64,000 nt of DNA from Lampris incognitus (Eukaryota > Chordata > Actinopteri > Lampriformes > Lampridae), in NCBI RefSeq assembly GCF_029633865.1, contig NC_079216.1, positions 64,215,107-64,279,106 on the forward strand, written 5' to 3'. Below, piece after piece: positions 607 to 60,800 of the stretch. Both the position numbers and the translations under genes were made by a program. Numbering within the stretch: the first letter of the stretch is position 1; every line of letters begins with the position of its first letter. The notes beneath the pieces were generated by a model. It had not been told where the DNA came from. It saw only the letters and a list, made by a program, of their open reading frames with translations, and searched no databases.

Positions 607-4536
<3,930 letters not shown>

Positions 4537-5034: not shown

Positions 5035-5844
5035 CAGTGGTTCTCCACCTTTTTGGGGTCCTGGACCCCCTGCGTATTTTTGATCTACCCTGAGGACCCC
5101 TCCACCTGATCTTGGGGGAGGGGGGTTGCAATTTGATAGAAACAGTAGAAACTGCATTTTAAATTGCGTTATAGCATTTATTCACTCTTTGGGGCAAAAA
5201 TAAGAGCTTTCAGTTGTAACTTAGATATAGTTAACAAAACAGAATTCTTATGCAGTAACTTTCAGATATATGTAACAAAACAGAATATGTATTCAGTAAC
5301 TTTCAGATATATGTAACAAAACAGAATATGTATTCAGTAACTTTCAGATATATGTAACAAAACAGAATATGTATTCAGTAACTTTCAGATATATGTAACA
5401 AAACAGAATATGTATTCAGTAACTTTCAGATATATGTAACAACACAGAATATGTATTCAGTAACTTTCAGATATATGTAACAAAACAGAATATGTATTCA
5501 GTAACTTTCAGATATATGTAACAAAACAGAATATGTATTCAGTAACTTTCAGATATATGTAACAACAGAATTTGTATGGAGTAACTTTTAACAATGCAAA
5601 CGGGAGCGAGATCTCTTATTAAAATACAATAAATTACACTTATGAAACAGATGTAATTAGAGAAAAAGTCCTGTTACCCTTTATAGTTTAGGTAGATAAA
5701 GGTCTCAGTCACATTTGAGTAAAATAATCCTATTTCTATAAATGTCACAGGATCTCTTTTTTAAAGATATTTTATTTTCACGGACCCCTTGCAATTACAC
5801 CATGGACCACTAGGGGTCCGCGGACCCCCGGTTGAGAAACACTG
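5035..5844 (+). mobile_element. hAT-type nonautonomous element with internal 41-bp satellite, copy 2
   Basis: The 810-bp element begins CAGTGGTTCTCCACC and ends GGTTGAGAAACACTG. Inside, about eight 41-bp units span 5230-5575. It has landed against a copy of the palindromic repeat at 4979-5034. No clear 8-bp target duplication is visible. Confidence 0.8.
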
Positions 5845-27886: not shown

Positions 27887-27929
<43 letters not shown>

Positions 27930-31600: not shown

Positions 31601-33478
31601 GTGGTAAGTAAGGATAGCCGCACACAAACACACTTATTGACATACATGAATATGCAGGCATTCACATGGACATGCCCAAACTCGCTCATGAATATCATTC
31701 CATATATTTCCATGCTCTGCACGAGGTATTTCGCCGCTTTACAGGTTTTTTTTTCTGATTGCTTAGCCACTGTCTTTGAAACTGTAGGTTATTTTTGCAA
31801 AACTCTACACACTAACCACAAAACCTTACACCAAACCAGTAAAACATTATACATATCTTGCAAAAGCAAACAGCTCTTGCAAAACTTCAAACTCTAAAAA
31901 AAAAAAGAGAAAAAAAAAGTTTATTTGCATCAATGCAGTACACACAAACTATCATTTGAATAAGCACATGAAACACCAACTACACACTGATAGTATAAAT
32001 GAAAAACACTTGTGGCTTTTGCTTTTTCTGTATGCAGGGCATAGCAGTTCGCAGTACATCTAGTAAACGCACAAACACACAGGTTAGATGTGTAAAATAT
32101 GGAGGTGTATTCCAAACATAACACACTACTCATACAAATAAGCAGAAAAAGTTCTATATTTATTTTCTCAAAATGTTCCAACAATCGTAATTATATGAAC
32201 TAATAATTATATTAATAACCATAATTATATTAATTAATACATTTTTCTCGATGTGGTCAGCAGATGGCGCTGTGTGTGTACTTAATGTGATTTCAATTGT
32301 CGCCAGCTGGTCAAACCGAAAATACAGCACAGTACCTCCTCATCCTTTTTGTTGCTCCCTCTGGGATGTAAAGAGGAGACGGAGAAAGGTCCGGAAGAGG
32401 TTTAGAGCATCACTTTGTTTTGGGACTCTTACAGTAGATGTGGAGAGGTGACGAAAAAGACGGACATAACTTCACAGGTGTAGAACAAAGTACAGGTGAA
32501 GTTATGTGGTGCTGAATAAAATGGAGCATAATCTGATTTTAGGTGGGACGGTCCTTCGCGATTCTCTCTCTCTCTCTCTCTCGCTCACTCATACACACAT
32601 GCACTACATCTCACGCCATTACTATTAACAAGACGTGGGGTTGAATACCCGTGTACCCATGTCATATTGATTACATATAAAATATTTTCCCTTAATGCTG
32701 CAAAATCCCCCCCCCCTTTCCTCCCCAATCGAAATCTTTGGCCAATTACCCCACTCTTCCGAGCCATCCCAGTCGCTGCTCCACCCCCCTGCTGATCCGG
32801 GGAGGGCTGCAGACTACCACATGCCTCCTCTGATACATGTGGAGTCACCAGCCGCTTCTTTTCACCTGACAGTGAGGAGTTTCACCAGGGGGACTTAGCC
32901 CGTGGGAGGATCACCCCCCGCCCTTCCGAACAGGCGCCCCGACCAGCCAGAGGAGGCACTAGTGCAGCGACCAGGACACATACCCACATCTGGCCTCCCA
33001 CCCGCAGACATGGCCAATTGTGTCTGCAGGGACGCCCGACCAAGCTGGACGTAAGATGGGGATTCGAACCGGCGATACTCGTGTTGGTAGGCAGTGGAAT
33101 AGACCGCCATGCCACCCAGATGCCCCTGTGAAATTTCATCTCAATGTGGCCAGCGGTATAGTACCCTGCCAAGGACAAAAAGGCTCAGATGATCTTTCAT
33201 TTTGGTAATGATCAACTCTTTGTGGATGTCATGTGTCTGTCATAGCTGTCAGCCAGTCCCCTCAGCACCAGAGCTTGACCCGCATCCCATTATGCCGATG
33301 TCACGTCGCTAATCCCAGCCTTAATTATTTATTACTACTGACCCCCTAACCCAGACCTCCCTCGGTGTCCCCCAGTTAGATTTGGCCTGGTTCAGTTTGT
33401 GCCGTGTGTATGTGTGTGTGCGCACGTGTGTCCCAAGGTGGATGTGGCCTGGTTCTATAGGAACTGCCTGACAGACAC

Positions 33479-33572
<94 letters not shown>

Positions 33573-33754
33573 CGCACGTGTGTGTCCCAAGGTGGATGTG
33601 GCCTGGTTCTATAGGAACTGCCTAACAGACACCTGTAACTGTAACCGTGGAGGTGACTGCGAATGCCTCTGTACCTCCATCGCTGCCTATGCACACAAAT
33701 GCTGCCAACAGGGGGTCACAATACACTGGAGATCCCCCTCCGTCTGCCGTAAGT

Positions 33755-33808
<54 letters not shown>

Positions 33809-36800
33809 GGTATTGTGGTTGCCAATGAAGTATTGTTGAAAATTGTGATTTTTCTTTCAACTAAGAATCCTTAGTTCATATTGTCTTCATACTCGTGGAA
33901 TAAATGACCTCTTTGACAGTGAAACACTTTGTGACAAGTGGTTATTTTGCTCTCTTACAGCCTATGACTGTGAATACTACAACCAAGGTATGTAAGACTG
34001 AGCGATACACAGTTTCTTGTGTGATGAATACTTTCTAGACCACTTGCTGTGGATCTCTCCGAAGTTCATTCACTGTTCATTAACCCACCTTTCCCGGATG
34101 ACCTCGCCATAGAGCTTGGAGATGGTCCGTTCTCCCTGGTCAGCGCTGTCTACAATGACACCATCTTTGGGGTGAACCGCACCAGCAGCTCTGTGTTCCC
34201 CCTGCTGAGAGAGAGGTCGGGGCGACTGCTCCCGTCAGGCCTGCTCTTCAACTTCATGATCACCGCAGGACTGCAGAAGGACCGCACATCACGTGAGCCT
34301 TCCCACGTTCACACTCACACCATCACGCAGTCACTCATTCCCACACCATTGGGAATAAATGTCACTCTCAAGGGCGTCCGGGTGGTGTGGCGATCTATTC
34401 TGTTCCCTACCAACACAGGGATCGCCGCTTCGAATCCCCGTGTTACCTCCGCCTTGGTCGGACATCCCTACAGACAGAATTGGCCATGTCTGCGGGTGGG
34501 AGGCCGGGTGTGGGTATGTGTCCTGGTCGCTGCACTAGCGCCTTGTCTGGTCGGTCGGGGCGCCTGTTCGGGGGGGAGGGGAAACTGGGGGGAATAGCGT
34601 GATCCTCCCATGTGCTACGTCCCCCTGGCGAAACTCCTCACTGTCAGGTGAAAAGAAGCGGCTGGTGACTCCACATATATCGGAGGAGGCATGTGGTAGT
34701 CTGCAGCCTTCCCCGGATAGGCAGAGGAGGTGGAGTAGCGACCGGATGGCTCGGAAGAGTGGGGTAATTGGCCGGATACAATTGGGGAGAAAAAGGAGGG
34801 GAAAAAAATGTCTCTCTCAAACCAATGACATGAGACGGCAAATGTCCCATGAGTCTCCATTACCCCAAAAACAACGAACCAACTCTCCGTTTTGCCCGTT
34901 TTTCTCCAGGGGTTCCTGTGGTTTCGCTGGAGTCTGCAGAAAGACCAAACTATTTCCTGGCTGTGTCGGGGCGCAGTCGACTTCAGTTGGAGCTCTGGAA
35001 GCGAGGGGGGGAGTTTAGTCGGAGGGCAACTTTTATCCAGCACCAGGGCCTGTTTGTGCCGGGCCACTCCTCATTTGAACTTGTTAGCCAGCCAGGAGTC
35101 TTCCTGACGCTGACGCGCACAGCAGCGCGAGCCCAGAGATACGACAACACGGAGGGCTTCAAATCCAGTAGTAGCTTCACACTGGAGGGTCAGAAACACA
35201 CACTTACACACACACACGCATTCACACACTTATACAGACTCACACATTAACTTCACGTGTGCTTCTGTCCTCTGCCAGAGAGCAGTTTTTTCATCCCGTA
35301 CCGTATGATGTGCGAGTGGCGCTACCAGGCCTGTGCAAGCCCTTGTGTTCAAACCTGCAGTGACCCCGACGCCACACGCTGTCACTTCCTGCCCCCGTAA
35401 GATGCTGAGACAATTACGAGCACTCTTAATACACACCCGAGAAAGTCTGTATATCTATGTATGTGTTGTGTGCTGCATGTGTTACAGTGTGGAGGGTTGC
35501 TTTCCACGTTGTCCCAAGAACATGGTCCTGGATGAAGTCACCAGTAGATGTGTCTACATAGAGGACTGTGAGTATATGAGTTGCGGTGTCTCAAAGATCC
35601 TATATAGAATCTCTCACCTCACCTCACCTATCCTGTAACCTCTGGAGAGGTTGTTGAGGCACCGCTGTTGAATCGGCAATCAGTCCTCACCATCTCTGTC
35701 TGTCCTCAACTGTAAGCTGGCAAAGTCAAGCCCAGTCCACTCTCTGATGTTACATAGCCATCGCTTCTTCTGTCTCCCTCATCTTCACCCACCCCTCAAT
35801 GTGCCTTGCAGGATGGTCTTAGCAAGGCCGGAACTTCTCAAGATGTGACCATATATAGAATAGGGATACATTTTGAATGACTAATTTTACTTGACAAGTC
35901 CACAGCAGTTTGCGGGGCATTTTTCTGCCAGTTATTGCACAAATAAATTGATTCCCTGAGTAACCCAGTCGATGTTTGCCTTTTCCAGGTGTGTCCCTTC
36001 CTCCAACCCCAACCCCTTTTGCATTTGTGACTCGGTCCAACAGAACCACCACAGCACCACCAACAACAACCATGACTCCAGTCCCGACAACTACCACCAC
36101 CACAAGGCATACGACAACTATAACCACTACTACTACCACCACGAGAGTGACCACCACTACGAGGCCTACCACAACAACAATCTCTACCAGTGCTCCCACC
36201 ACTCCCAGTACAATTCCTCCCTCAGAGAGGATCACCTATTCTACCATTCCCTCGACGTCCACATCTTCTCCTCCCTCCTCTCCTTCCACCCCGTCTGTAT
36301 CCACCCCACTTGCTTTCACCACCACCCCAGAGACAACCACCCTCAGCACACCTGAAATGACTCCCACCCAAACCACAAAAATAACCACAGTGGTTACTAG
36401 TGCGGTAACCACGGCAACCTCCTCCACCACGACAGAGGCAGCTACTGTCCCCTCCTCAACCCCTCCTCTGTCCTCTCCCAGTCCCACCACAACATCTACA
36501 CCCACTATGCCCACCTCCACCACCGATACCACACCTGCATCGACAGCCACCCCGACCCCAGCGCCCACATCCCCCACAACCTCCACCCTACCATCCCAGA
36601 CCGTCCCCACCACACAGCCAGCTGCCACCACAACGGTTACCACCACACCCACTCACACTCCTGCCGCTGCCATCACGACCGCTCCTCAGCCAGAGCCGAC
36701 TGACATGACTGTTACCACGGCGACCACCCCGACGGACACTTCAACGACTATGGTGTCGGCTACAGCACCACCTCCTGAGACTACCACTGAGCTTGTGACC

Positions 36801-39800
36801 ACAGAGGGAGCCACAAGCCCCGAGACCTCTCCTACCACAGAAGAAGTATCAACTACACCTCCTCTCCTTTTCCCCACAACCCCCTGTACAGTAAGTTGGG
36901 CAGATGTGAGAAAACAAGCCCACAGGCACACACATACAGAGACATATTTGTTCTTTCATTCATTCATTCATTGCCCCTGCCTGTTTAATCTAGTCCATGG
37001 TTGTGGAGTAGCTGGGGCCTATCGCAACAAGCACCAAGGTCAGACGGCAGGGTGTTGGTACATTGCAGGACACTTTCTCAGACACTTTCTCGCTCACACT
37101 TCATATAGACACATGCTGCTCATCCGAAAACACCTGGATGATAAATCAGTGCGTCCTGGCTGAGACTCCGACCAAGACTACCCCCAGAATTCCTGAGGCG
37201 ATAACATAGGAATGTGTTGAAAGATTGGTTCAGCGAATCTGCTGTCTTACTGACTGCAGCGCTGTGCATCATGTTCCTGTCTGTTTTGACTGATAGTTAG
37301 CTTTTGTGCGTGTCATTGATCAGTGTTGTGTGCATTTTTTTCCACAGCCCCCGTACTCTTACCGTGTAGACGAATGTGCGGAACTGATCTGTTTCAACGG
37401 AGAGCTGCTGCTCCACAACGCCTCCCTGCACTGTCGCTACAACACAACCAAGCCTCAGTGTAGCCTGCTGGGCCTGCCCATCCTGACCAACACGGACCCC
37501 TGCTGCCCACAGTGGCAGTGCCCCTGTGGGTATTAACAGACCGTTTCACTGCTCAGATGCCATTATATGTTAATGTTCAGGTGTTCCCAACCTTGAAAGC
37601 AGTTGTTTTATGGACCAAAAGTCTCGAGATAGCTAAATACATTCAAGAATATCCTATATTAGGGTGTCCAGGTGGCGTGGTGGTCTATTCCGTTGCCTAC
37701 CAACATGGGGATCACTGGTTCGAATCCCCGTGTTACCTCCGGCTTGGTCGGGCGTCCCTACAGACACAATTGGCCGTGTCCACGGGTGGGAAGCCGGATG
37801 TGGGTATGTGCCCTGGTCGCTGCCTGGTCAGTCGGGGGCGCCTGTTCAGGGTGAAAAGAAGCGGCTGGCGACTCCACATGTATCGGAGGAGGCATGTGGT
37901 GGTCTGCAGCCCTCCCCGGATCGGCAGAGGGGTTGGAGCAGCGACCGAGATGGCTCGGAAGAGTGGGGTAATTGGTCGGATACAACTGGGGAGAAAAGGG
38001 GAGAAAAAATCCAGTATTACTCTCAGCTGTCAACGATCATTTTGTGAAAAGCTCAAACCGTAACACTTTTTGCACCCGGGCAGACACAATAACAGCAGAC
38101 ATGATGAGACAGACTGTCTTAGTGACGTTTGAGGCAGATTGAGAGACGATGCGTAATAGATGAACACTTTTCTGATGGCTTCATGTAATTGCTGGTCCAG
38201 CAGACTCGACTGAGATGTTTTATTTCCTGTCTGTATTTGTTGATGCCAGGTCGCTGCTCTGTGATGTCGGACCTGCGCGTGATCACGTTTGATGGTAACA
38301 ACGTGGCTCTGTATGACAACGGCTCCTACATTTTAGTCCACCTGCCCAGAGAAAAAATTATCGGTACAGTGGAGAAATGTCCCACCAGCCAGGTAAAATA
38401 AAAAAGGACTGGAATATGAACTCGGGTCCATATTGATTTGCGTGTACATGTTGCTGTCTGATGCGTTCAGTGAATCTTCTTTTTCCTCTCTCGCAGAGCG
38501 TAAACTCGATCAGACGGCCTGTGAGTACCATCCTCTCATTCATCAGACAGTTATTTGGTGTGCTTCTTATTTTCAACGAAGTTGTTGCATTTCTTCTCCC
38601 GCTTCCTCTCTCAGAGTCCTACGGGTGGTACCTCTGGACTGTGTTTTAAGAAACTGAACATTACAACCTCCTCCTATAGAATCATCATCAACCGTCTGGA
38701 CCGCAAGGTGACCTTCCTCGCTCCTCTCTACCTGTTCTGCAGGCCAAGATGCCATCTCGTGTATTCTGTCTGTGTCTAGCTGCCTGGCTATCTCTCTGTC
38801 TGTCTGCCTACCTTTCTGTCTGTCTGTCTTCAGGTGTCAGTGAACTACAGAGATGCCAGGCTCCCGTTCTCCCGTCAGTCTTTATATGTGGATGACACAG
38901 GCAGCATGTACTTGATCCATACACCTGGAGGGGTCAGTATTCAGTGGTACCATAGCACTGGCATCATGGTGCTCCTGTACACCAGTCCCAGTAACATATC
39001 TACACGAGGCCTGTGTGGTGAGTGCACACACACACACACACACACACATAAGTATTTGTCATTTCATTAAAAAACGAAGGGAAAAAAAGCGGCATGGTGG
39101 TCCAGTGGTTGGCGCTGTTGCCTCACAGCAAGAAGGTCCTGGGTTCGAACCCCAGGTCATCCCAGGTCCTTTCTGTGTGGAGTTTGCATGTTCTCCCCAT
39201 GTCTACGTGGGTTTCCTCTGGGTGCTCTGGTTTCCCCCCACCGTCAAAAAGACATGTATGTTAAGGTTAATACTCCTACCTGTGCCCCTGAGCAAGGCAA
39301 TGGAAAGAAGAACTGGAGTTGGTCCGCAGGTGCTGCAGCTGCCCACTGCTTCTATGCAATAGGATGGGTTAAATGCAGAAGACACATTTCACTGTAACCT
39401 GGGCAATGACGAGATAAAGTGGCTTTCGTTTCAAAAATCAAAATACAATAATGTATACAAAACTATACTGGCCTCCTCCTCCTCCTTCTTCTTCTTCTGG
39501 CTTGTTCCCTGTTTCTCAGGGGTCGCCACAGCAGATTTTTGCCCTCCATACCTTTCTATCTGATGCATCCCTCTCCCACAGTCCAACTCCTCTATCTGGT
39601 CTCTCCATCTTTTCCTTGGTCTTCCTCTTTTTTCTTTTGCCAGGTATGTATTTACAGGTCCAATACCCTCTTTCCTATATAGTCTATGCCTCCTCTCTGT
39701 ACATGTCCAAACCATCTTGTCTCTCTCAGTTTCTCAGCCGTTCCTCTGATCTTGAACGTAGTGCTCACTCCTTCATTTCTCTTCCAGTCAAGGCCTACCA

Positions 39801-40943
39801 CCTTTTTATTGATGAGTAAATAGATTTTATACGCCAATGATTTCACCACATCTAACTGCACTCTCAAGAAGTGGAGGCATGTCAGTTTTTACAGCTTTTT
39901 ACTTTCGGACTGCTCCCGTCAGGGGTTGCCACAGCGGATCATCCATTTCCATCTCTTCCTGTCCTCTGCATCTTCCTCTGTCACGCCAGCCACCTGCATG
40001 TCCTCCCTCACCACATCCGTAAATAGTTGATAGCACCGGGTAGCGTAGCTGTCTATTTGGTTGCCAAATAACACAGGGATCGCTGGTTTGAATCCCTGTG
40101 TTACCTCCGGCTTGGTTGGGCATCCCTTACAGACACAACTGTGTCCCTGCAGACACAGCAGACACAACTGTATCTGCGAGTGGGAAGCCAGATGTGGGTG
40201 TGTGTCCTGGTTGCTGCACTAGCGCCTTGTCCGGTTGGTCAGGTCACCTGTTCCGGGAGGGAGGGGGAACTGGAGGGAATAGCGTGATCCTCCCACGCGC
40301 TACGTCCCCCCTGGCGAAACTCCTCACTGTCAGGTGAAAAAGAGGCAGCTGGCGACTCCACGTGTATCGGAGGAGGCTTGTGGTAGTCTGCAGCCCTCCC
40401 CGGATCGGCAGAGGGTGCGGAGCAGCAGCGACCGGGACGGCTCGGAAGAGTGGGGTAATTGGCCGGATAAAATTGGAAGAAGGGGGGGGGGATATAGTGT
40501 GAGTATTTTATCAATTAAAGCTCACTATCAATGAAGTTACCTGAAGGAAATGCATCGTGTTCCAACTTCACATGCATACATACATACATATATTACATAC
40601 ATTACATACATACATATGAATTCAATATAGAATGTAAGAAAAATATATCCTGGAATCCCTCCATGTCAGGCTGTTGTGATGGGAACCCGGCTGATGACTT
40701 GAAGCTGCCCAACGGCACAGTGGTCAGGGAGGTGGGGGACATGGTGCTTTTCCTGCAAGCCTGGAGGGTTCACACGTCTGACGAGGCCGAGCACATGCGC
40801 AGGGTCGGAGACAACTGCACCACCGGAGACTGCTCCACCTGCCTCTCCATGCTGCATCAGAGAGCATTCACCCCCTGCCACAGCAAGGTATATTGGTACA
40901 CACACACACACACACATTGTTCATTTTTCAAAGCCGTGGTCAT

Positions 40944-40988
<45 letters not shown>

Positions 40989-43162
40989 GGTATCGCCAGA
41001 GCAATTCTGTGACATCATGTGGGCGGGGGACCTCCATTACAAGGACCACCAGTGTGATTTCCTGGCGGCGTACGTGGCGGTCTGCTACACACACCAAGTC
41101 TGCATCAGCTGGAGGCGACACAACTTCTGCCGTAAGGAGTACACAGGCATACACAGAGAAAACACACGTTCGTGCGCACACGCATAAAGGTGGCGAGAAT
41201 ACGTGCCTGCTCAGACACACCCCAAGGGCGCTCTCACTCGTCTTGTTTGCTCACATGTTGCTAAGCGCCTGTCACTTTGCAGCGCTGCGTTGTCCCCCCG
41301 GCAAGGAGTACCAGCCGTGTGTGAGCACCTGCACCAGCCGCACCTGCCAGAACAGAGAGTACTACGAGGAGACCACCTGCTCCTACATCCGGGAGGAGTG
41401 TGTGTGCCGCAGCGGAACCATCCTGCACCGCGCCGACTCGCCCTACTGTGTGACCGAGGATCGCTGCGGTGTGTCACTTTTGATTGTGCTCTATCATAAT
41501 ATCCTTGATAGGGTTAGAAGGGCATAATGGGTTGTCCGGGGGGTGTGGCGGTCTATTCCGCTGCCTACCAACACGGGGATCGCCGGTTTGAATCCCCGTG
41601 TTACCTCCGGCTTGGTCAGTTGTCCGTACAGACACAACTTGCCGTGTCTGATGTGGGTATGTGTCCTGGTTGCTGCACTAGCACCTCCTCTGGTTGGTCC
41701 GGGCGCCTGTCCAGGGAGGAGGGGGAACTGGGGGGAACAGCGTGATCCTCCCACACGCTACGTCCCCCTGGCGTCTGGTAGGCATGTGGTAGTCTGAAGC
41801 CCTCCCCGGATCGGCAGAGGGGGTGGAGCAGCGACCGGGACAGCTTGGAAGAGTGGGGGTAATTGTAGTACGATTGGGGAGAAAATCCCCCCCCCAAGAA
41901 AAAGAACATCATAATGACTGTTTTGAATGCCAGCGTGTTTACTTGTGTGTGTTGTGTTTTTTTTTGTTTTTTTTTTGTGGTATGTGTAGTGTGCACAGAT
42001 AATGAGGGTAACCCCCGGGCCCCTGGCGAGGTGTGGAATGGCTCCACTCGTAGCTGCTGCCTGTACAAGTGCATGGAGAATGGCTCGGTAGTGGCTGTGG
42101 AACCAGACTGCAGCTCCAGCCCTGTCCCGCTGTGTGAGAGGGAGGGAGAGTACGTCCTGGATGTTTTGGAAGAAGGAGCTTGCTGCCCTAAGAAGATCTG
42201 TGGTAACCTCCTTAAACACTCAAATCCACAAATCGTCTCAACCCTAAACAACCAGAACGACGGCAATAAACCAGAGGTAGACATGAAATTGATCCGGGGG
42301 CATGCGGGTAACGTGGCGGTCTATTCCGTTGCCGACCAACACGGAGATCGCTGGTTGGTCGAGCGTCCCTACAGACACAGTTGTCCGTGTCTGCGGGTGG
42401 GAAGCCGGATGTGGGTATGTGTCCTGGTCACTGCACTAGCACCTCCTCTGGTCGGTTGGGGCGCCTGTTTGGGGGGGGCGGGGGAACTGGGGGGAATAGC
42501 GTGATCCTCCCATGTGCTACGTCCCCCTGGTGAAACGCCTCACTGTCAGGTGAAAAGAAGCGGCTGGCGACTCCACGTGTATCGGAGGAGGCATGTGGTA
42601 GTCTGCAGCCATCCCCCGGATCGGCAGAGGGGATGGAGCCGCAACCAGAACAGCTCGGAAGAGTGGGGTAATTGGCCGGATACAATTGGGGAGAAAAAGG
42701 GGGAAAAATCCCCCCCAAAAAAAGGTTTATCTGCCATTTTACTCTCATCATTATGATTTCACCTTTTGTAATGAGACACTCTTATTATTATCTCAAGTAA
42801 GGAGCTCATGTTAGTGTAGACAAGGGTAACTTCCAACCATTGGTCTTGTTCAAGTGTCCTCGAGCAAAACATTGCCCTGACCACCTGACTTGCTTTAAGT
42901 CACAATGGATAATAGAGACTTGATGACGACCTAGACTGACTGTAAACCAGTTTTACCCTTCTTATCAGCACTGGAATATTATCATTGAATCCCAATGGGC
43001 TGTAACATGGAAGTGGGCCACTTCACCATCTGATTTCACTCAATAGTCCTCTCCGCTCTGGTTGAAGGTGCGATAATTACTGAAACCAGCTGGAGTTGTG
43101 CTGGGATGAAAACCTGCAAACACATGGCGCTCTATGGCACATGATGGAGTACGGCTGCTTTA

Positions 43163-43225
<63 letters not shown>

Positions 43226-44793
43226 CCTCTCCCGCTCTCCCCCCTCCATGTCAGAGTGCAACATGACCATCTGTGACAGTGAGGCTCCACCGTGTGATAA
43301 CGGTAACCGGCTGGTGGTTGGGTACAGTGCTCTGTCCTGCTGCCCCGAGTACAGATGTGGTGAATAATTCTGTATTTTCTCCTCCTTGCAGTACACTTAA
43401 GTCATTTCGGTTTTTGGTCATCTGGTGATCCGTCCATTTGTGCTCACTAAGTTCTGTATTTCGGTCAAACCCTTCTCAGAGTGCGACCCCATGGCGTGTC
43501 CCCCTGTATCTGTCCCAGACTGCAGAGAAGATCAGTTCCTAGTAGAGGTCAGGGAGGATAAATCCTGCTGCTACTCCTACCTGTGTGGTATGTTTGTTAT
43601 CTCGTCGTCTTACAAAAAGGGGGGATTTTGGGTTGACGTCAGCACATCTGTCATGGCCCTTTCTGACTTGTCCCTCAATTACAGAGGCAAAACCACTAAG
43701 TCTGATTTTTGTGGGTCCTGTCTGTGCAGTGTGCGAGTCCTGTATTGAGCCTGTCCCAACCTGCTCACGTGGAGAAATCCTGGCTGTGGACATAAACACC
43801 ACCAACAGCTGCTGTCCACAGTACCATTGTGGTAGATAAAACAGGTTTTTTTTGTGTGGGTGTGTATATGTGTGTGAGAGCGAGAAAGAGTAAAACTGTG
43901 TGTAACTGCGTGACTATATGACCCTGTTTACACTTGGTTTTAAAATGTGTTTTGGGCGATCGGCTCACAAGTGGACAGTTTGACACGTCGCCGTTTACAC
44001 CTGTGTCTATCATGCGGCCCCAAATGCGTCCTGCTGACCACTTGTGATCAGATTTCGTTACTCCGAAGAAGAAGAATTCCTGTTATGTCCTTGTCAGGGA
44101 CGCATCAGGATGCATTAGCGTTTACACTACAAAAGATATGTGGTCAAGTGCGTCCCAGACCACCTCGGCAAGTGGTTTGAGTAACTGGTTCACAAAACGT
44201 TTTGGTAGTCGTTCACACTTGTATTTAGTGCCGTCCCCTTGTGATCTGATCGCAAAAAAACGCATTTTAAAGACAAGTGTAAACGGGGTCTGTGTGTCTT
44301 TCTGTTCCCTCATTCCTTGATACAGTCTATGATCAAGTCCATTACATGGTCTTTTCATTTGCAGTGTGCGATGTCAGCCTTTGTCCTGATTCGTCCATGA
44401 GCTGTGCACCTGGTCTCTCGCTGGTTCAGGCCACTGTTCCTGGACATTGCTGCCCACAGCACCGTTGTGGTACACACATGCAGCCACACACACACAAAAC
44501 ACACAATTTCAACTCTCAGTTGGTAATGTGCACATAAACTTTTTATTGCGTCTCTTCCCGCCTTCCTCTTTATCTGTCTCAGAATGCCAGTGTGAGGGCA
44601 GCACTCTGCCTGTCTGTCACGTGGTAAGTCAGGAAATGAAAGCTGCTTCTGGCGTCACTCTGTAAGCCTTTTTGTGGGTGAGAGAGAAGTAAGCTCAGTT
44701 AACAACTCTTTATTATCAGGGGGAGGCGCTAGTGGATGTCCCAGACAGCAGCACCAGTTGTGGTTGCCCTCGGCATACCTGCCGTAAGTGCAT

Positions 44794-44859
<66 letters not shown>

Positions 44860-45427
44860 TGGCTGGCCTATGAGGATTGCTGTCTTAAGGAGCTGCAGAT
44901 ATGTGTGGTCTTTTACCTGGTTTCTAGGGATCTATTTGTGTTGTGTATCTGTATGTGTGTGTAGAGAAGACAGAGGTGTGTGTCTTCCAAGGGGTCACAG
45001 TGCTGAGCCCAGGCCAGTCCCTAGTTCAGTACTTGGAGGGTGAGCTGTGTTACAATGTCCACTGCCTGCAGCACAGAGACCCTCTCACCGGTTTCTATGC
45101 CATGGACATCTCTGCCATCAACTGCTCCCAGAAGTGCGGGCCGGTACGTACGTACCATAAGGTGGCGCAACAGAGACTTGGCATTGCCTGTGTCACACTT
45201 CAACTGCCCAAAATATTTTACTTACACCCTTTCTCCTTCTCCCCACTGCATCGCTGTAGCACCAGATGTATGTGGCGTCCTCTGACCCTCAGGTGTGCTG
45301 TGGTTCCTGCAAAAACGTCTCCTGTACTTTCACCAGTGACAACGGGACCACAGAGCTCTTCACCGTAAAATGGAAAACATCTAAATTCACATGAATTCCA
45401 CATTTTTTTTTTCAGATGGGTGTCAAA

Positions 45428-51198: not shown

Positions 51199-54100
51199 AT
51201 GGACGGAGCGGCGAGGCTGTGGTGGCTGGCGTGTTTATGTCAGGTAAGGAGGTCCATCCGTTATCCAGACCGCTTGTCCCGCTCTCCGGGTCGCGGGGTT
51301 AAGGGTGCCGGAGGAAAAACGGTGCCGTCGTCTGTAGTTCGTGTTGTCAGCACCGACACAGATACATACGTCCATCTGCCTTATCTTTTACCCCCCCCGG
51401 CGTCCCTCTATGGCAGTGGTTCTCAACCGGGGGTCCGCGGACCCCTAGTGGTCCGTGGTGTAATTGCAAGGGGTACGTGAAAATAAAATATCTTTAAAAA
51501 AAAAGATCCTATGACATTTATAGAAACAGGATTATTTTACTCAAATGTGACTGAGACCTTTATCTACCTAAACTATAAAGGGTAACAGGACTTTTTTCTC
51601 TAATTACATCTGTTTCACAAGTGAAATTATTGTGTTTTAATAAGAGATCTCGCTCCCGTTTGCATTGTTAAAAGTTACTCCATAAAAATTCTGTTTTGTT
51701 ACATATATCTGAAAGTTACTGAATACATATTCTGTTTTGTTACATATATCTGAAAGTTACTGAATACATATTCTGTTTTGTTACATATATCTGAAAGTTA
51801 CTGAATACATATTCTGTTTTGTTACATATATCTGAAAGTTACTGAATACATATTCTGTTTTGTTACATACATCTGAAAGCTACTGAATACATATTCTGTT
51901 TTGTTACATATATCTGAAAGCTACTGAATACATATTCTGTTTTGTTACATATATCTGAAAGTTACTGAATACATATTCTGTTTTGTTACATATATCTGAC
52001 AGTTACTGAATACATATTCTGTTTTGTTACATATATCTGAAAGTTACTGAATACCTATTCTGTTTGTTACATATATCTGAAAGTTACTGCATAAGAATTC
52101 TGTTTTGTTACATATATCTGAAAGTTACTGCATAAGAATTCTGTTTTGTTACATATATCTGAAAGTTACTGCATAAGAATTCTGTTTTGTTACATATATC
52201 TGAAAGTTACTGCATAAGAATTCTGTTTTGTTAACTATATCGAAGTTACAACTGAAAGCTCTTATTTTTGCCCCAAAGAGTGAATAAATGCTATAATGCA
52301 ATTTAAAATGCAGTTTCTACTGTTTCTATCAAATTGCAACCCCCCTCCCCCAAGATCAGGTGGAGGGGTCCTCAGGGTAGATCAAAAATACGCAGGGGGT
52401 CCAGGACCCCAAAAAGGTTGAGAACCACTGGTCTATTGTATCCGAGCACTTCAGGCTGCTGTCGGCGTGGTCGCAGACACGTGAAGTCATCACAATACTG
52501 GCCTGGTGTGACAGCTAGCTTAAAATCTCGTTCTTTCTGTCCTTAGCAAGTGTAGAACCTGATAATGTAATAAAAAATGCACTTGAGGCCATTGAAAATG
52601 CAATAAAACCTGATAATGTAATAACTTCCCGATAATGTACTAAACTTTTTACCGATAATGTAATAAAGTATTGCATTAACAGGAGGTTATTACATGATCA
52701 GGTTAGCCTTCATTTTGCAGGTCCTGATAATGTAATAATTCCCCAATATTGTAATAATTTAACAGCAGACCACCTATTAATGGGTTCAAGTGGTGATACT
52801 GTGTTGGCAACTCTAGCTCCAGAGCTCTAGCGCCACCAACAGGTCAAAGTTGGACATGCAAATGCACTTTATTACATTATCAGGAAGTTATTACATTATC
52901 AGGTTTTATTGCATTTTCAATGGACTCAAGAGCAGATTTTTATTACATTATCGGGGATTTATTACATTATCAGGTTCTACAGCAAGTCTATACAGTTTAG
53001 CCTCACCCGTGTTATCCCGTGACCCCTCAGGTGGCCAGGTTGACCTGTGTGCAGAGGTCGGACCCCGTCGACGCTGAATTTGTGTTTCGACGCTTCCCCG
53101 TCGGTCAAGTTGCAGAGGATTACGCAGTCACCTGCAGGACTGCCAGCAGCCACATGGTCAGAACGCTGCACACCCGTTGAGGGAATCAAACAGAGAAGCA
53201 GGATGTTTAGTTTAGTTGTTTTTTTTTCCTGAGGTAAAAGAGTTTGATTCATTTCTTTTCAGAGGTCTGCCTTCTGCTGCATGTGATGATGGATCCAGTT
53301 CGGTGTGAAAATCACCTCAGAGATCAGTGCACTAGTTCCGCAGAAAAAGAAAAATCTGCACAAAACCATGTTAGATGTGCTTTTGAGGAGTCATAAGTTA
53401 GCTGCTTTAGAATGAAGCGCAGACATGATCTTTTGGAAAACGATATCCTCTAATGTCATAAATAACGACAACCGTGTGATCAGAACAGAGCCTTTTCAGT
53501 CACTGCAGTGGAATGGTACGGTCTCTAGTTTGTTCGTGAAAAGGCTGTATAGTGTGTTTTATTTAGTCTGCCAGGCCATTTCTCACAAACTGTTTAACAT
53601 CCTTCAGGTGTCGGTGGATCATATTAGTCACTCGGCATGCTCTCCTGACTGCAAGGTGTCACCGCGGTTGTTTGAGGATCCCGCAGGGTATAACATCACA
53701 CTGAAAGCCAAAAGAAATGACACCACTCTGGAGGCAAAGAGTTTTCACCTTGGTGAGCTGGGTAATAAATAGATGAAATATGTAAATGGCGGCACGGTGG
53801 CCCAGTGGTTAGCACTGTTGCCTCACAGCAAGAGGGTCCTGGGTTCGAACCCCAGGCCATCCCAGGTCCTTTCTGTGTGGAGTTTGCATGTTCTCCCCGT
53901 GTCGGCGTGGGTTTCCTCCAGGTGTTCCGGTTTCCTCCCGCCATCAAAAAGACATGCATGTTAGGGTTAATACTCCTGCCTGTGCCCCTGAGCAAGGCAA
54001 TGGAAAGAAGAACCGGAGTTGGTCCCCAGGTGCTGCAGCTGCCCACTGCTCCTATACAATAGGGTTAAATGCAGAGAACACATTCATTGTATGAATACAA

Positions 54101-54913: not shown

Positions 54914-56411
54914 GTATATCAGATTTTACTCCAGAAGATACACATACACACAGACCTCCACACCTCCTACAGACTGAACCTGTAGAGTCAGCATCCATCA
55001 CAAGGTGACCATCAATGAGTTTGACTTACTGTGAGGTGATAACACTTTTGTCTCTTAATAGCCCAGTGCCCCTTTGGCTGGTTGGCTGATGGGAGAAGCT
55101 GCTACGCTGTGAGTAGGACTGGCTTAGCCTGGGATGACGCCCAGCACAACTGCGAGGACCAGGCGTCAGGTGGTCACCTGGCTGACCTGAAAACCCAAGA
55201 AGATCTCCTCTTCATCTCCTCACACCTGGTTATCCAAAACACCCTGTTGCTGTTGTGGACTGGGCTTAATGATCAGCAGGTAGAGCGACAACAGTTGTTG
55301 TTCCTTAAACCAACAATGAAAAACTGAAATGGTGTACAGCAAATATGATGTACAGAAATGAGGAGATTCTGAGGCATCTAGATTTTGAGAGAACACCAAA
55401 GGGGGAAGTTGTGTGATGGTGATAGCAGCATGATTCTGGCCAGGGCAGTGGGGTGACACAATAAGTAGAGAGGGCATCATTCAGCCAGAGGGACCGGGTT
55501 CAAGTCTGGTAGTAGCAAGCATCAAAATTGCTGAAATGTCATTGAACATGATGCAGAATTTATACCAGCGGTGCAAGCAAAAGGGTTTACCCTTTAGGCA
55601 TCAGTCATGTAGTCCAGAAACGATCTGGTTCAGTCCCACATTACAGACATTAGGCAATTCAAAATCAAAGTTGGATTTTGCGTTGTTGGTCGGATTAATA
55701 AGTCAGTACTTGTTCAATAATCAGCGGACATGATTTTTCTAGTAAATTATTTTCTTGAGGCAGCACAATGGCGCAGTAGTTAGCTAGGTCGCCTCACAGC
55801 AAGAAGGTCCTGGGTTCAAGCCCCGGGGTAGTCCAACCTTGGGGGTCGTCCCGGGTCGTCCTCTGTGTGGAGTTTGCATGTTCTCCTCGTGTCTGTGTGG
55901 GTTTCCTCCGGGGGCTCCGATTTCCTCCCATAGTCCAAAGACATGTAGGTCAGATGAATCGGCCGTACTAAATTGTCCCTAGGTGTGAATTTGTTGGCCC
56001 TGTGATGGACTGGTGGCCTGTCCAGGGTGTCTCCCCGCCTGCCGCCCAGTGACTACTGGGATAGGCTCCAGCATCAAGTGACCCTAATTAGGATAAGCGG
56101 TTTGGGTAATGGCTGGATGGATGGAGGATTTTCTTGATTTCTGTAAATGTTGGCAAAGTATGTTAGTACATAGGTACAGAGGAGTGAGGTGTTTTGAACC
56201 CTTGTCTAACTCTAGAGTAACCTGAATTTGTCTCCTGATGCCCGTGGAACTGTGTTAACTCTGCGGGGGGGGGGGCTTAGCGCCAGTGGGCTTTGTTTTG
56301 GATGTTAGGCGCTTGAACTGAAGTTTACATTCAAAACAAGAAAAGCACCAAGTCAGCGATCACTCCTGAGGCAAGTGTGTTGACTTAATTAATATCTGCA
56401 GACTGTTTACT

Positions 56412-56446
<35 letters not shown>

Positions 56447-56588
56447 TGAGAATTAGAGGTCTGCAAACCCATCGGGTCCCAACACGCTGAATCGATTCGG
56501 GCCGGGCTCGGGCAATTTTATTTATTTTTTTATAGATTGGGCTCAGGTCGAACTCAGGCTCGTTTAACTTCCTATATATATATACTAT

Positions 56589-56641
<53 letters not shown>

Positions 56642-57775
56642 ACGACACGGTGGCGCAGTGGTTAGCGCGGTTGCCTGCCTCACAGCAAGAAGGTCCTGGG
56701 TTCCGACCCTGGGGTAGTCCAACCTTGGGGGTCGTCCCGGGTTGTCCTCTGTGTGGAGTTTGCATGTTCTCCCCGTGTCTGCGTGGGTTTCCTCCGGGTG
56801 CTCCGGTTTCCTCCCATAATCCAAAGACTTGTAGGTCAGGTGATTCAGCCATACTAAAGACTTGTAGGTCAGGTGATTCAGCCATACTAAAGACATGTAG
56901 GTCAGGTGAATCAGCCATACTAAATTGTCCCTAGGTATGAATGTGTGTGTGTCGGCCCTGTGATGGACTGGCAACCTGTCCAGGGTGTTTCCCCATCTGC
57001 CGCCCAATGACTGCTGGGATAGGCTCCAGCATCCCATGACCTCAATTGGGATAAGTGGCTTGAAAAATGGATGGATGGATAATAGATATTATACATACGC
57101 ATGTACACATGCACTACAAGTGACAGTTGACCATGTATGTGTGTTTGCGTGCATCACAGAGAGCACGTGTCAGAGAGAACTTAAAGTGATTTTGGTGTCG
57201 GTATAAGGTCAGGCCCATGCTGGAAAATTGCAGACTTTGTCGGGCTGGGGCTGGGCTAGAGCTGGAGTTTTTGGCCCATGCAGGGCTCTAGTGTTAATAC
57301 AAATGCCTGCATCCTCTCTCACTCCACAGGTGGAAGGCCAGCCTCACTGGTCTGATGGCTCGGCCTACAACTTGACCAACTCTGTGACATCATATTTGCC
57401 AGCCAATGAAACAGACTGTTTTGCTCTTCAGAAGAATGTCACTGGACCTGGACACTTTCTCACGCCTTTCTTCTGCAACATCCCCTTACCCTCCATCTGC
57501 CAGTACCAGAGTAAATAACCCGTGCAACAAACGTTTATAAAGCCACACCAGAGCAGCTATTATGCTCCACATTTTATACACCTTCAAAGAACGATGCAGA
57601 ACTGTGCAGTTTGTAAAGACTAACCTGTTGTTTCTTCACTACCATTTTGTTCTCTCATTGCAACCCCTGGCCCTTAATTTGGCAATTTCAGATTAAACAT
57701 CTTATTCAGTACATCTTTAGTAGCCAAACAAAACCCATATATTTTGTGAGCATCTCTTCTGAAACTCTTCTAATG

Positions 57776-57840
<65 letters not shown>

Positions 57841-60800
57841 GCTACAGTTCCTTTAGTCCCTGCCTTGTTCTCCTTTGTCCTGGTGCAGGTGACAGAACAG
57901 GAGGTGGAGCTTTCCTGGAGTGACCTGTCGCTGTTGAACTCATTTGACCGTTCCCGCCTCGAGATCTTCCTCCAGTACCGAGAGGAGGTTGAGGAGAAGT
58001 CCAGTCCACGAGATGAGGGTGGCCGCAGGAAGAGCGGTCAAGTTGATGAGGCCGGAGAGGTGACACATTTGCCCAGCAGGGTTGCTAGAATGATGCGCAT
58101 CCCGGTCTCCCTCTCCTCCAGGGGGGTGACTGTGGCAGGTCTGTCCCCAGGAAGGGTCTACTCTTTCTCCCTTCGAGCCTCCCACTCAACTGGCTCCTCC
58201 TGGAGCCTGGGACAAACATGTACTGCATACACAAGTGAGTCTATTGACACTCGGCCACAGACATACACAAAGACATACACAATGACCTTCGTATTGCTCT
58301 AATGAATATCATTTATTTATTATTTTACTTCCTCTATCTCACAGGGCCTCTTCCTCCACAGAACATCACTATTGAGTCCGTTACGGCCGGTGAGATCATT
58401 ATTCACTTGCTACTCTCAGGCCCCCCGGGTTTCACTGCGTGGAGCGTTGTGCTACGCTGTATGGACATTTCTTCAGGCCAGGAGAGGCTCGCCGGGGTGG
58501 CAAACATCTCCAGGTCACCCGAGACTGATGGACTGCAGGCGTACACCGCTGTGGTTGTAGGGCTGGAGTCATACAGACAGTACAGGATTCAAGTTCACAC
58601 AGTCACCGAGCAAGGAATCGAGAGCTGTGGACAAGCATCTCTGACTGTACAAACAGGTAATACAGAAATGGTTGCACAAACACATACAGTATGTCTATAA
58701 GTAAGCACCATGTGTTTATTATTTCTATTTGTAAAAACATTTTTGGACTAAAAGTCCCAAGGTGTACCTCCAGCAGTTAGAACAGTGACCCACAAAGCAC
58801 CTCTGCATACTTTCCACATGCCACTGTTTCCTATTCAGAGCATTCTTGCAACTTCTTAATACACCTTGAGGACTGGGATGGTGGGCTTTAGGGTTATTTA
58901 GGGTTAAGAAAATGTAATGCAAGGCGGAAAATTAAGACAAGCACCGCTGCCATTTTTCTGGCGTGACAATTTATCTGATATTATCTGCCTGTAAAAACCC
59001 CACCTGTCTGGAAAACAAAACAACACTACATACTTGCAAATGCCATATCATTGCAACGCATTCTCATCCCATGGCATTGTGTATTGACTCGTTTGCTAAA
59101 GTGTCGATATAGTACGTGCAAGGTACACTTCCGTGTCTGTAATGAGACATACTGGGTGTGGTGTTTCCAACGGTGAACCTCCTACAGTACTTTTGGGCAC
59201 CTAGAGCTTTTTTACCTGGCACCAGCCATTTCTCTCCTATGATGGTTTGGCCTGATATGATGTACAGGTGGTTAAATTTTGGGCATAGGGGGCATCTGGG
59301 TAGCATGGCAGTCTATTCCATTGTCTACCAACAGGGGGATTGCCGATTCAAATCCCGATGTTACCTCCAGTTTGGCCAGGCGTCCCTACAGACACAACTG
59401 GCTGTGTCTGCGGGTGGGAAGCCGGATGTGGGTATGTGTCCTGGTTGCTGCACTAGCGCCTCCTCTGGTCGGTCAGGGTGCCTGTTCAGGGGGGCGGGGG
59501 AACTGGGGGGAATAGCGTGATCCTCCCACGCGCTGCGTCCCCCTGGTGAAACTCTTCACTGTCAGCTGAAAAGACGCAGCTGGTGACTCCACGTGTATCA
59601 GAGGAGGCATGTGGTACTCTGCAGACCTCCCCGGGTCGGCAGAGGGGGTGGAGCAGCGACTGGGACAGCTCAGAAGAGTGGGGTAATTGGCCAGGTACAA
59701 TTGGGGAGAGGTTAAGTACATTGGTAAATCTTAGTACCCGCCGTCAAATTTCCTGTGCGTCCTGTATTGATGCTTTGGTGACATGTGACACTGGGATATG
59801 CATGGACTTGTGTTTTGTGTGTCTTGTAGCAGTGAGTGCCCCGAGTGGTCTGGTGGTGCGGAGCAAGGCGAGAAACCTAACAGCCTGCTGGAACAACCCA
59901 TCTGATGATCGTCCAGATGGTTATTATGTCACACCCCGCCCTCTCAACCACCCCTACCCAACTACATTATGGATTAATGAATCCAGCCCAAGTGCACTCT
60001 GGGGCAATAAATCTGTGTGCATTGTTCTGAGTATGCTCACTCCAGGTCAGACCTACAAGGTAGGAGTGGTCTCGGTGAGGGGTGAAGACAAGAGTCAAGA
60101 GTCCAGTGTTGTTTTTACCACAGGTAGGAGAAACTGGAAAATGGCCTCACTGAAGCCAATGTTTGTCATTTAAAAAAACAAAACAAAAAAACTTGCCCCT
60201 TATGCCCTCTCCATCTTTATGCATGTCTGTCTGCAGATCCATGGGCAGTAAAGTTAGCAGTCCCTCTCTCCGTTGGCACAAACTCTGCTTTGCTCTTCAT
60301 CCAGCGGCCACATCTAGGCATTGTCGACGGAGTGAAGGTGTGTGCGTGTCGGGGAGTGTGTGAGGAAGCGTGTGAGGAAGCGTGTGAGGAAGTGTGCGAG
60401 GATGTGTGCGAGTGGCACTCTCTCCCCGCGGGCACTCATACACTCACTCTCAGCAACCTGAGTCCGGGATCTGAGTACCAACTCAAGGTGTACAGCACCA
60501 GCCGAGGGCAGACAGGACCCCCATACTACACCCACCCCATTAGAACCAGTGAGTTGCACTTTCTTAGTAGGCTCGTGCACGTACCCCCACACCCACGTGC
60601 ATGTGCATGTAAGCCACATGAATAACTGGAGGATTATGATGGTCCACAGTTCTATATCATTAGAATAGATAGGCATCTTGGCATGAGGCTTTAATTTTCC
60701 ATAAACCAAGACTAATTAGAACCTTCTTTATGTTTATTTTGAGAATAACCATAAGATATGATGTATGCCATGGTTTTTAATTGTAGGTCTGGCCCCTCCA

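Follow-up and report, generated by a model that had tools for sequence, protein, structure and literature searches.

The locus and its gene

The window, that is the whole stretch of 64,000 nucleotides analysed here (C9:64215107-64279106 of a 1.48-Gb genome), contains a C2-domain (synaptotagmin-like) gene and, downstream of it, a gene whose joined exons gave Pfam matches to VWD, C8, AbfB and DAN. The TIL domain stayed just under its cut-off of 24.5 bits, with 24.4 and 23.4 bits in two runs. The peptide YDCEYYNQ, encoded at 33963, matches the peptide YDCEYYNKA given for exon 28 of zebrafish otog in the available part of the einstein report (PMC4360185). By its domains and this peptide the gene is fish otogelin (otog), the paralogue otogl being a possible alternative. 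A preliminary description of this DNA had named the gene otog, and the domain matches and the exon-28 peptide support that name. The same description spoke of intron 42 in referring to the repeat-bearing intron at 40888-40989. Counting from zebrafish exon 28 gives about intron 37-38, and the number 42 is unsupported because the mucin-like exons at ~35.9-36.9 kb are unsettled in the gene model. C-type lectin and fibronectin type III exons are predicted downstream of otog, at 55062-58656.

A comparison of positions 40700-41135 with the genome gave a single match over the full length and four short ones to the repeats of this segment. For the analysis of splice sites a curated set of 52 acceptors and 47 donors was compiled from otog and the upstream C2-domain gene, using a gene finder and frame checks; for some of the curated ends (such as 28504, 46508 and 48349) the gene finder is the sole basis. 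The splice matrix and the codon usage applied were general background values. The features discussed below are collected in Table 1.

Table 1. Positions of the exons, introns and repeat tracts discussed in the text (window coordinates unless a contig is given; a slash marks the splice junction)
Feature	Position	Strand	Description
Second AC-GT intron, upstream C2-domain (synaptotagmin-like) gene	4206..4329	+	124 nt; (AC)9, 21-nt linker, (TG)14.5, CAG acceptor
D3 exon following the equivalent intron	33592..33748	+	acceptor CCCAAG/GTGG
(AC)12 tract of the preceding intron (starts 39018)	39025..39048	+	24 nt; 7 nt past donor
Upstream exon, end of D4 VWD and start of C8	40670..40887	+	ends ...FTPCHSK, phase 0; frame-continuous join, Pfam VWD and C8
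Intron	40888..40989	+	102 nt, GT...AG; sequence and protein continuity
Donor AAG/GTATAT and spacer TGGT	40888..40897	+	sequence
(AC)9.5 tract, ACACACACACACACACACA	40898..40916	+	19 nt; 10 nt 3' of donor
Linker	40917..40945	+	29 nt; sequence
(GT)20.5 tract, (GT)20G	40946..40986	+	41 nt; ends 3 nt 5' of exon
Acceptor AAG	40987..40989	+	sequence
Downstream exon, remainder of C8	40990..41131	+	frame-continuous join, Pfam C8
otog intron	44784..44964	+	(CA)31 12 nt past donor; 3' end degenerate, GT-rich
L027, AC-GT intron of a MIZ/SP-RING gene	C1:92329528		CPVCN/gtaagt...tag/KTALLEG; aligns to PIAS2 across junction

Junctions and composition of the intron

The exons on the two sides of 40888-40989 join in phase 0 within the C8 domain (Pfam PF08742, 1.1e-9 to 1.3e-9), and the intron-retained version gave no Pfam match to C8 at E<=0.001. 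The alignment with VWF is free of gaps at the 40887/40990 junction. An intron in phase 0 interrupts the D3 module of this gene at the corresponding position (CHNV/VDVAWFY), and its acceptor, too, is AAG. Protein continuity and the D3 intron together fix both boundaries, and judged by these comparisons the segment is a real spliceosomal GT-AG intron. Frame 0 is open throughout the segment (34 codons, stop-free) and the unmasked gene finder took it as exon, both of which would fit an unspliced, coding segment adding 34 residues (THTH...VCVC) to C8; this reading, scarcely credible given that the gene finder called the junction once repeated words were masked and that the corresponding place in D3 is likewise occupied by an intron, was dropped because of the VWF alignment without insertion and the loss of the C8 match.

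An acceptor at the AG located just within the next exon (CAG/AGCAATTC) was also rejected, because its use would shift the frame and break the C8 alignment. A 7-nt direct repeat, AAGGTAT, lies over both splice junctions (40885-40891 and 40987-40993). Such a repeat hints at recent insertion of the intron, a possibility rejected on account of the D3 intron at the same place; since the intron position is shared with D3, the repeat is probably due to chance.

From 5' to 3' the intron consists of GTATATTGGT (10 nt), (AC)9.5, the 29-nt linker, (GT)20.5 and AAG. In splice-matrix score (general background values) the donor at 40888 ranks as the 20th weakest of the 47 curated donors and the AAG acceptor as the 4th weakest of the 52 acceptors. 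AAG was found at two of these 52, namely here and at the D3-equivalent intron. The GT tract occupies the place usually taken by the polypyrimidine tract, and pyrimidines account for 8 of the 17 positions between -20 and -4, the median of the 52 acceptors being 12/17. The single match to yUnAy in the intron, TTCAT (A40923), is within the linker and may be the branch point. The linker also contains two AG dinucleotides, starting at 40932 and 40945.

The dimensions given in the preliminary description (a 102-bp intron, a 29-base linker, about 20 bases of CA and about 40 of GT) were right, and the acceptor that it called rare is indeed so by the above count. Repeats make up 60 of the 102 nt, so that "almost entirely" repeat was an overstatement. 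Its label of AC-GT intron is supported by the location of the AC tract 10 nt past the donor and by the end of the GT tract 3 nt short of the exon. In folding energy per nucleotide the intron is, as described, the clearest AC-GT case of the window, but that at 4206-4329 is nearly equal.

Tract polarity and co-occurrence

Within 50 nt upstream of the curated acceptors there were 13 GT tracts and no AC tract, and within 50 nt downstream of the donors 6 AC tracts and no GT tract. None of 20,000 label shuffles matched this polarity (19/19). After removal of 8 sites that had been located with the tract in view it was 12/12, with 9-12 of 20,000 shuffles as good, and after the further removal of the intron at 40888-40989 it was 10/10 (44/20,000 shuffles as good). 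Seven of the 12 acceptors bearing the 13 GT tracts were already present in the first, unmasked gene-finder path. Two predicted donors, 48144 (GT, discordant) and 28638 (AC, concordant), were left out as unsupported; with both included the polarity is 20/21, the miss being 48144. The curated assignment covers neither the GT tract at 27888 nor the mucin-like exons. Polarity was weaker in wider windows (21/25 within 80 nt, 21/28 within 120 nt), in part because the tract at the far end of short introns is then counted too. When all sites were shifted jointly by 300-3000 nt (2000 trials), a mean of 3.0 and a maximum of 9 tracts were found near them, compared with the 19 observed.

No polarity was seen around splice-like motifs in a further 17 stretches, each of 10 kb, 12 of which are on the same contig within ~65 kb of the window (donor-like motifs 0 AC and 2 GT, acceptor-like motifs 17 AC and 12 GT). 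Inside the window polarity was absent from donor-like motifs (2 AC, 2 GT) and present at acceptor-like motifs (3 AC, 13 GT).

The AC-GT arrangement by itself is unremarkable, since random placement of the 38 tracts of the window produced one or more AC-GT pairs with a spacing of 5-60 nt in 23% of 3000 placements, and two or more in 3%. Chance does not account for the position of the tracts at splice sites and their polarity there. A locus with strand-polar microsatellites of this sort is convenient for telling a structural requirement apart from simple tolerance of repeats.

An AC tract at the 5' end and a GT tract at the 3' end of one intron were found together in 2 of 46 introns of the window (a count without the intron 35396-37348), compared with 1.43 expected (p 0.45), a result that counts against pairing as the cause of the polarity. 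Genome-wide, AC-N15-45-GT had 9687 starts per strand and the backward control 9160, overlapping starts being counted in both. When the search was anchored to GTAAGT, the plus strand gave 11 AC..GT and 7 GT..AC matches; as distinct sites on both strands, with overlaps collapsed by eye, these numbers were 27 and 17. One repeat family supplies 7 of the 27 AC..GT sites, and in 6 of the 17 GT..AC sites GTAAGT is merged into the tract. The family, in which GTAAGTAGGTATATACACAC is followed by AC/AT/GT repeats, was seen on contigs C37, C75, C86, C289, C481, C524 and C527, and it inflates the donor-anchored counts. The raw reverse-strand and backward-control counts (77; 37, 21; 66; 173, 47) include overlaps and were not used. 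In the 17 comparison stretches there was no tract pair with a gap of up to 60 nt in either order, and with gaps of up to 150 nt there were one AC-GT and three GT-AC pairs.

The flanks of the 20 AC..GT sites outside the repeat family were viewed. One of them, L027, contains a clear short AC-GT intron; at several others a plausible exon was seen, by eye, on the upstream side only. L027 indicates that the AC-GT layout is present elsewhere in the genome, and the whole-genome counts revealed no clear excess of it. On this evidence, pairing as the cause of the polarity is supported neither by co-occurrence nor by the genome counts.

Predicted structure and possible role of the repeats

Folded alone, the intron has a predicted minimum free energy of -41.7 kcal/mol (z -2.67), which was equalled or bettered by 4 of 200 shuffled sequences. 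Per nucleotide this is -0.409 kcal/mol/nt, the lowest value among 24 short introns (90-297 nt, our own gene models); the median of the other 23 is -0.188 kcal/mol/nt, and the intron at 4206-4329 comes second with -0.390 kcal/mol/nt. With 60-nt flanks included, the AC tract is predicted to pair with the GT tract at a mean probability of 0.999, in several registers, the best of which reaches 0.50. Positions +2 to +6 of the donor are within the predicted stem, paired at 0.73-0.84, and a stem reaching this far could be a help or, by hindering U1, a drawback. The mean graph distance between the two splice sites in the fold is 9.7 steps, and 4 of 21 other short introns have their sites as close or closer.

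Introns with the (AC)m-(GU)n layout were described in zebrafish by Lin et al. 2016 (Genome Research, doi 10.1101/gr.181008.114), whose work is cited here by way of the papers that refer to it. According to the available parts of these and related papers, (GT)n 5' of the acceptor pairs with (AC)n 3' of the donor in ~10% of all zebrafish introns (PMC6093180), dinucleotide-repeat hairpins formed from opposite intron boundaries allow U2AF2-free splicing (PMC9198270), structured introns of zebrafish are independent of U2AF2 (PMC9508853), folding energies of the class are 50-100% lower than those of introns of similar length (PMC9024468), and the class is found in fish and lamprey (PMC7404189). The otog intron shares with this class the AC tract after the donor, the GU tract before the acceptor, a predicted intron-spanning hairpin in a fish genome, and a low folding energy relative to the median of the other short introns, which agrees with the range given for the class. 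It differs in its AC arm (19 nt), which is much shorter than the GU arm (41 nt), and in its AAG acceptor. To judge from its sequence and predicted fold, it looks to be a further member of the kind described in zebrafish, and no new system. Among the literature matches listed, from a search with most of the subscription literature outside its scope, no title dealt with this otog intron.

Another likeness is to exon 9 of CFTR, where splicing at a (TG)m(T)n acceptor is length-dependent. There, as in the otog intron, a TG repeat is located immediately 5' of the acceptor. We know of no AC partner at the CFTR donor, whereas the otog intron has its AC partner tract within the same short intron.

The reading that we favour, with a probability of about 0.58, is that the otog intron belongs to the (AC)m-(GU)n type of spliceosomal introns and that its hairpin has a structural role in splicing. 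In the pre-mRNA the AC tract would pair with part of the longer GU tract, and this pairing would draw donor and acceptor together. Decoy AGs would be hidden in or beside the stem, and splicing would be less reliant on a polypyrimidine tract and U2AF2. The AC arm being half the length of the GU arm, AC length would set the stability of the stem, and GU length would act mostly on the pairing register and on the distance to the 3' splice site. In the computed series, with AC fixed at 9 units, the ensemble energy was -42.6 kcal/mol for 15 GT units and -45.6 kcal/mol for 40; with GT fixed at 20 units it was -35.4 kcal/mol for 7 AC units and -56.0 kcal/mol for 12. By this model the AC arm is limiting, and a change in GT length is expected to have hardly any effect on the stem. 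The suggestion of the preliminary description that polymorphism in repeat length could influence splicing is therefore weak as regards the GT tract. The unequal arms thus lead to a sharp prediction, that stem stability is governed by AC and not by GT length, and in view of the two energy series a test of length polymorphism is best aimed at the AC tract.

The intron is a compact example, and loss of the gene in which it lies causes a visible phenotype, known as einstein in zebrafish and DFNB18B in humans (PMC4360185). In einstein, as stated in the available part of the same report, a donor-site SNP leads to skipping of exon 28 (PMC4360185). The gene is common ground with the repeat-bearing intron at 40888-40989; the einstein lesion is a point change at another intron, for which that part of the report describes no role of repeats (PMC4360185).

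A structural role is the leading explanation, and passive tolerance is a serious rival, although a less probable one. It supposes that microsatellites beside splice sites survive only when oriented so as to leave splicing intact, the hairpins being a by-product. AC/GT microsatellites are common in the window. A GT tract before an acceptor would supply U without AG, and an AC tract past a donor would offer no rival GT. Tolerance would also accommodate the strong polarity of single tracts (19/19, and 10/10 in the strictest set) side by side with co-occurrence at the chance level (2/46 against 1.43), as well as the near equality of bare AC..GT and GT..AC genome-wide. The high tract load near splice sites (19 against a mean of 3.0 and a maximum of 9) is not predicted by simple tolerance; this argument is weakened by the fact that some of the sites were found with the tract in view.

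Regulation of the junction by proteins reading the repeats, with pairing being secondary, appears quite unlikely. UG repeats are bound by CELF-type proteins, and the readers would be TDP-43 or CELF-type proteins on the UG repeats and hnRNP L on the CA repeats. Such a role would agree with the available part of a preprint on human cortex, where associations are described between TARDBP and GT repeats, between HNRNPL and AC repeats, and between binding and repeat length (PMC13174678), but these proteins would find the AC tract and much of the GT tract masked by the predicted pairing.

Pairing beyond the borders of the intron is also predicted. In a fold of 38990-41050 the GT tract at 40946-40986 pairs both with its own AC tract and with the (AC)12 tract of the preceding intron, at 0.94 and 0.91 of the shorter tract. 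Taken together the two AC tracts amount to 43 nt (19 + 24), compared with 41 nt of GT. There is a slight chance that the GT tract is common to both and that competing or joint pairing decides whether the 218-nt exon 40670-40887 is skipped or spliced in the normal way; if true, the relative repeat lengths would set the splicing ratio for this exon.

The D3 exon at 33592-33748 is flanked by a GT tract of 88 nt upstream (33481-33568) and an AC tract of 51 nt downstream (33757-33807). In a 641-nt fold that included 33481-33807 the two tracts are predicted to pair across the exon at 0.98 of the shorter tract, and such pairing would favour exon skipping or circularisation over intron removal. At 33438-33480, immediately 5' of this GT tract, is a partial copy of the beginning of exon 33592 (GTGGATGTGGCCTGG...), preceded by a CCCAAG of its own; to judge from the letters, the copy is a tandem duplication including an acceptor-like site. 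The 3' end of the intron at 44784-44964 contains no GT tract of at least 10 nt. Tandem arrays are located at 1-259, 5216-5588 and 51671-52249 and, by eye, apparently consist of one 41-bp unit, inverted in the third.
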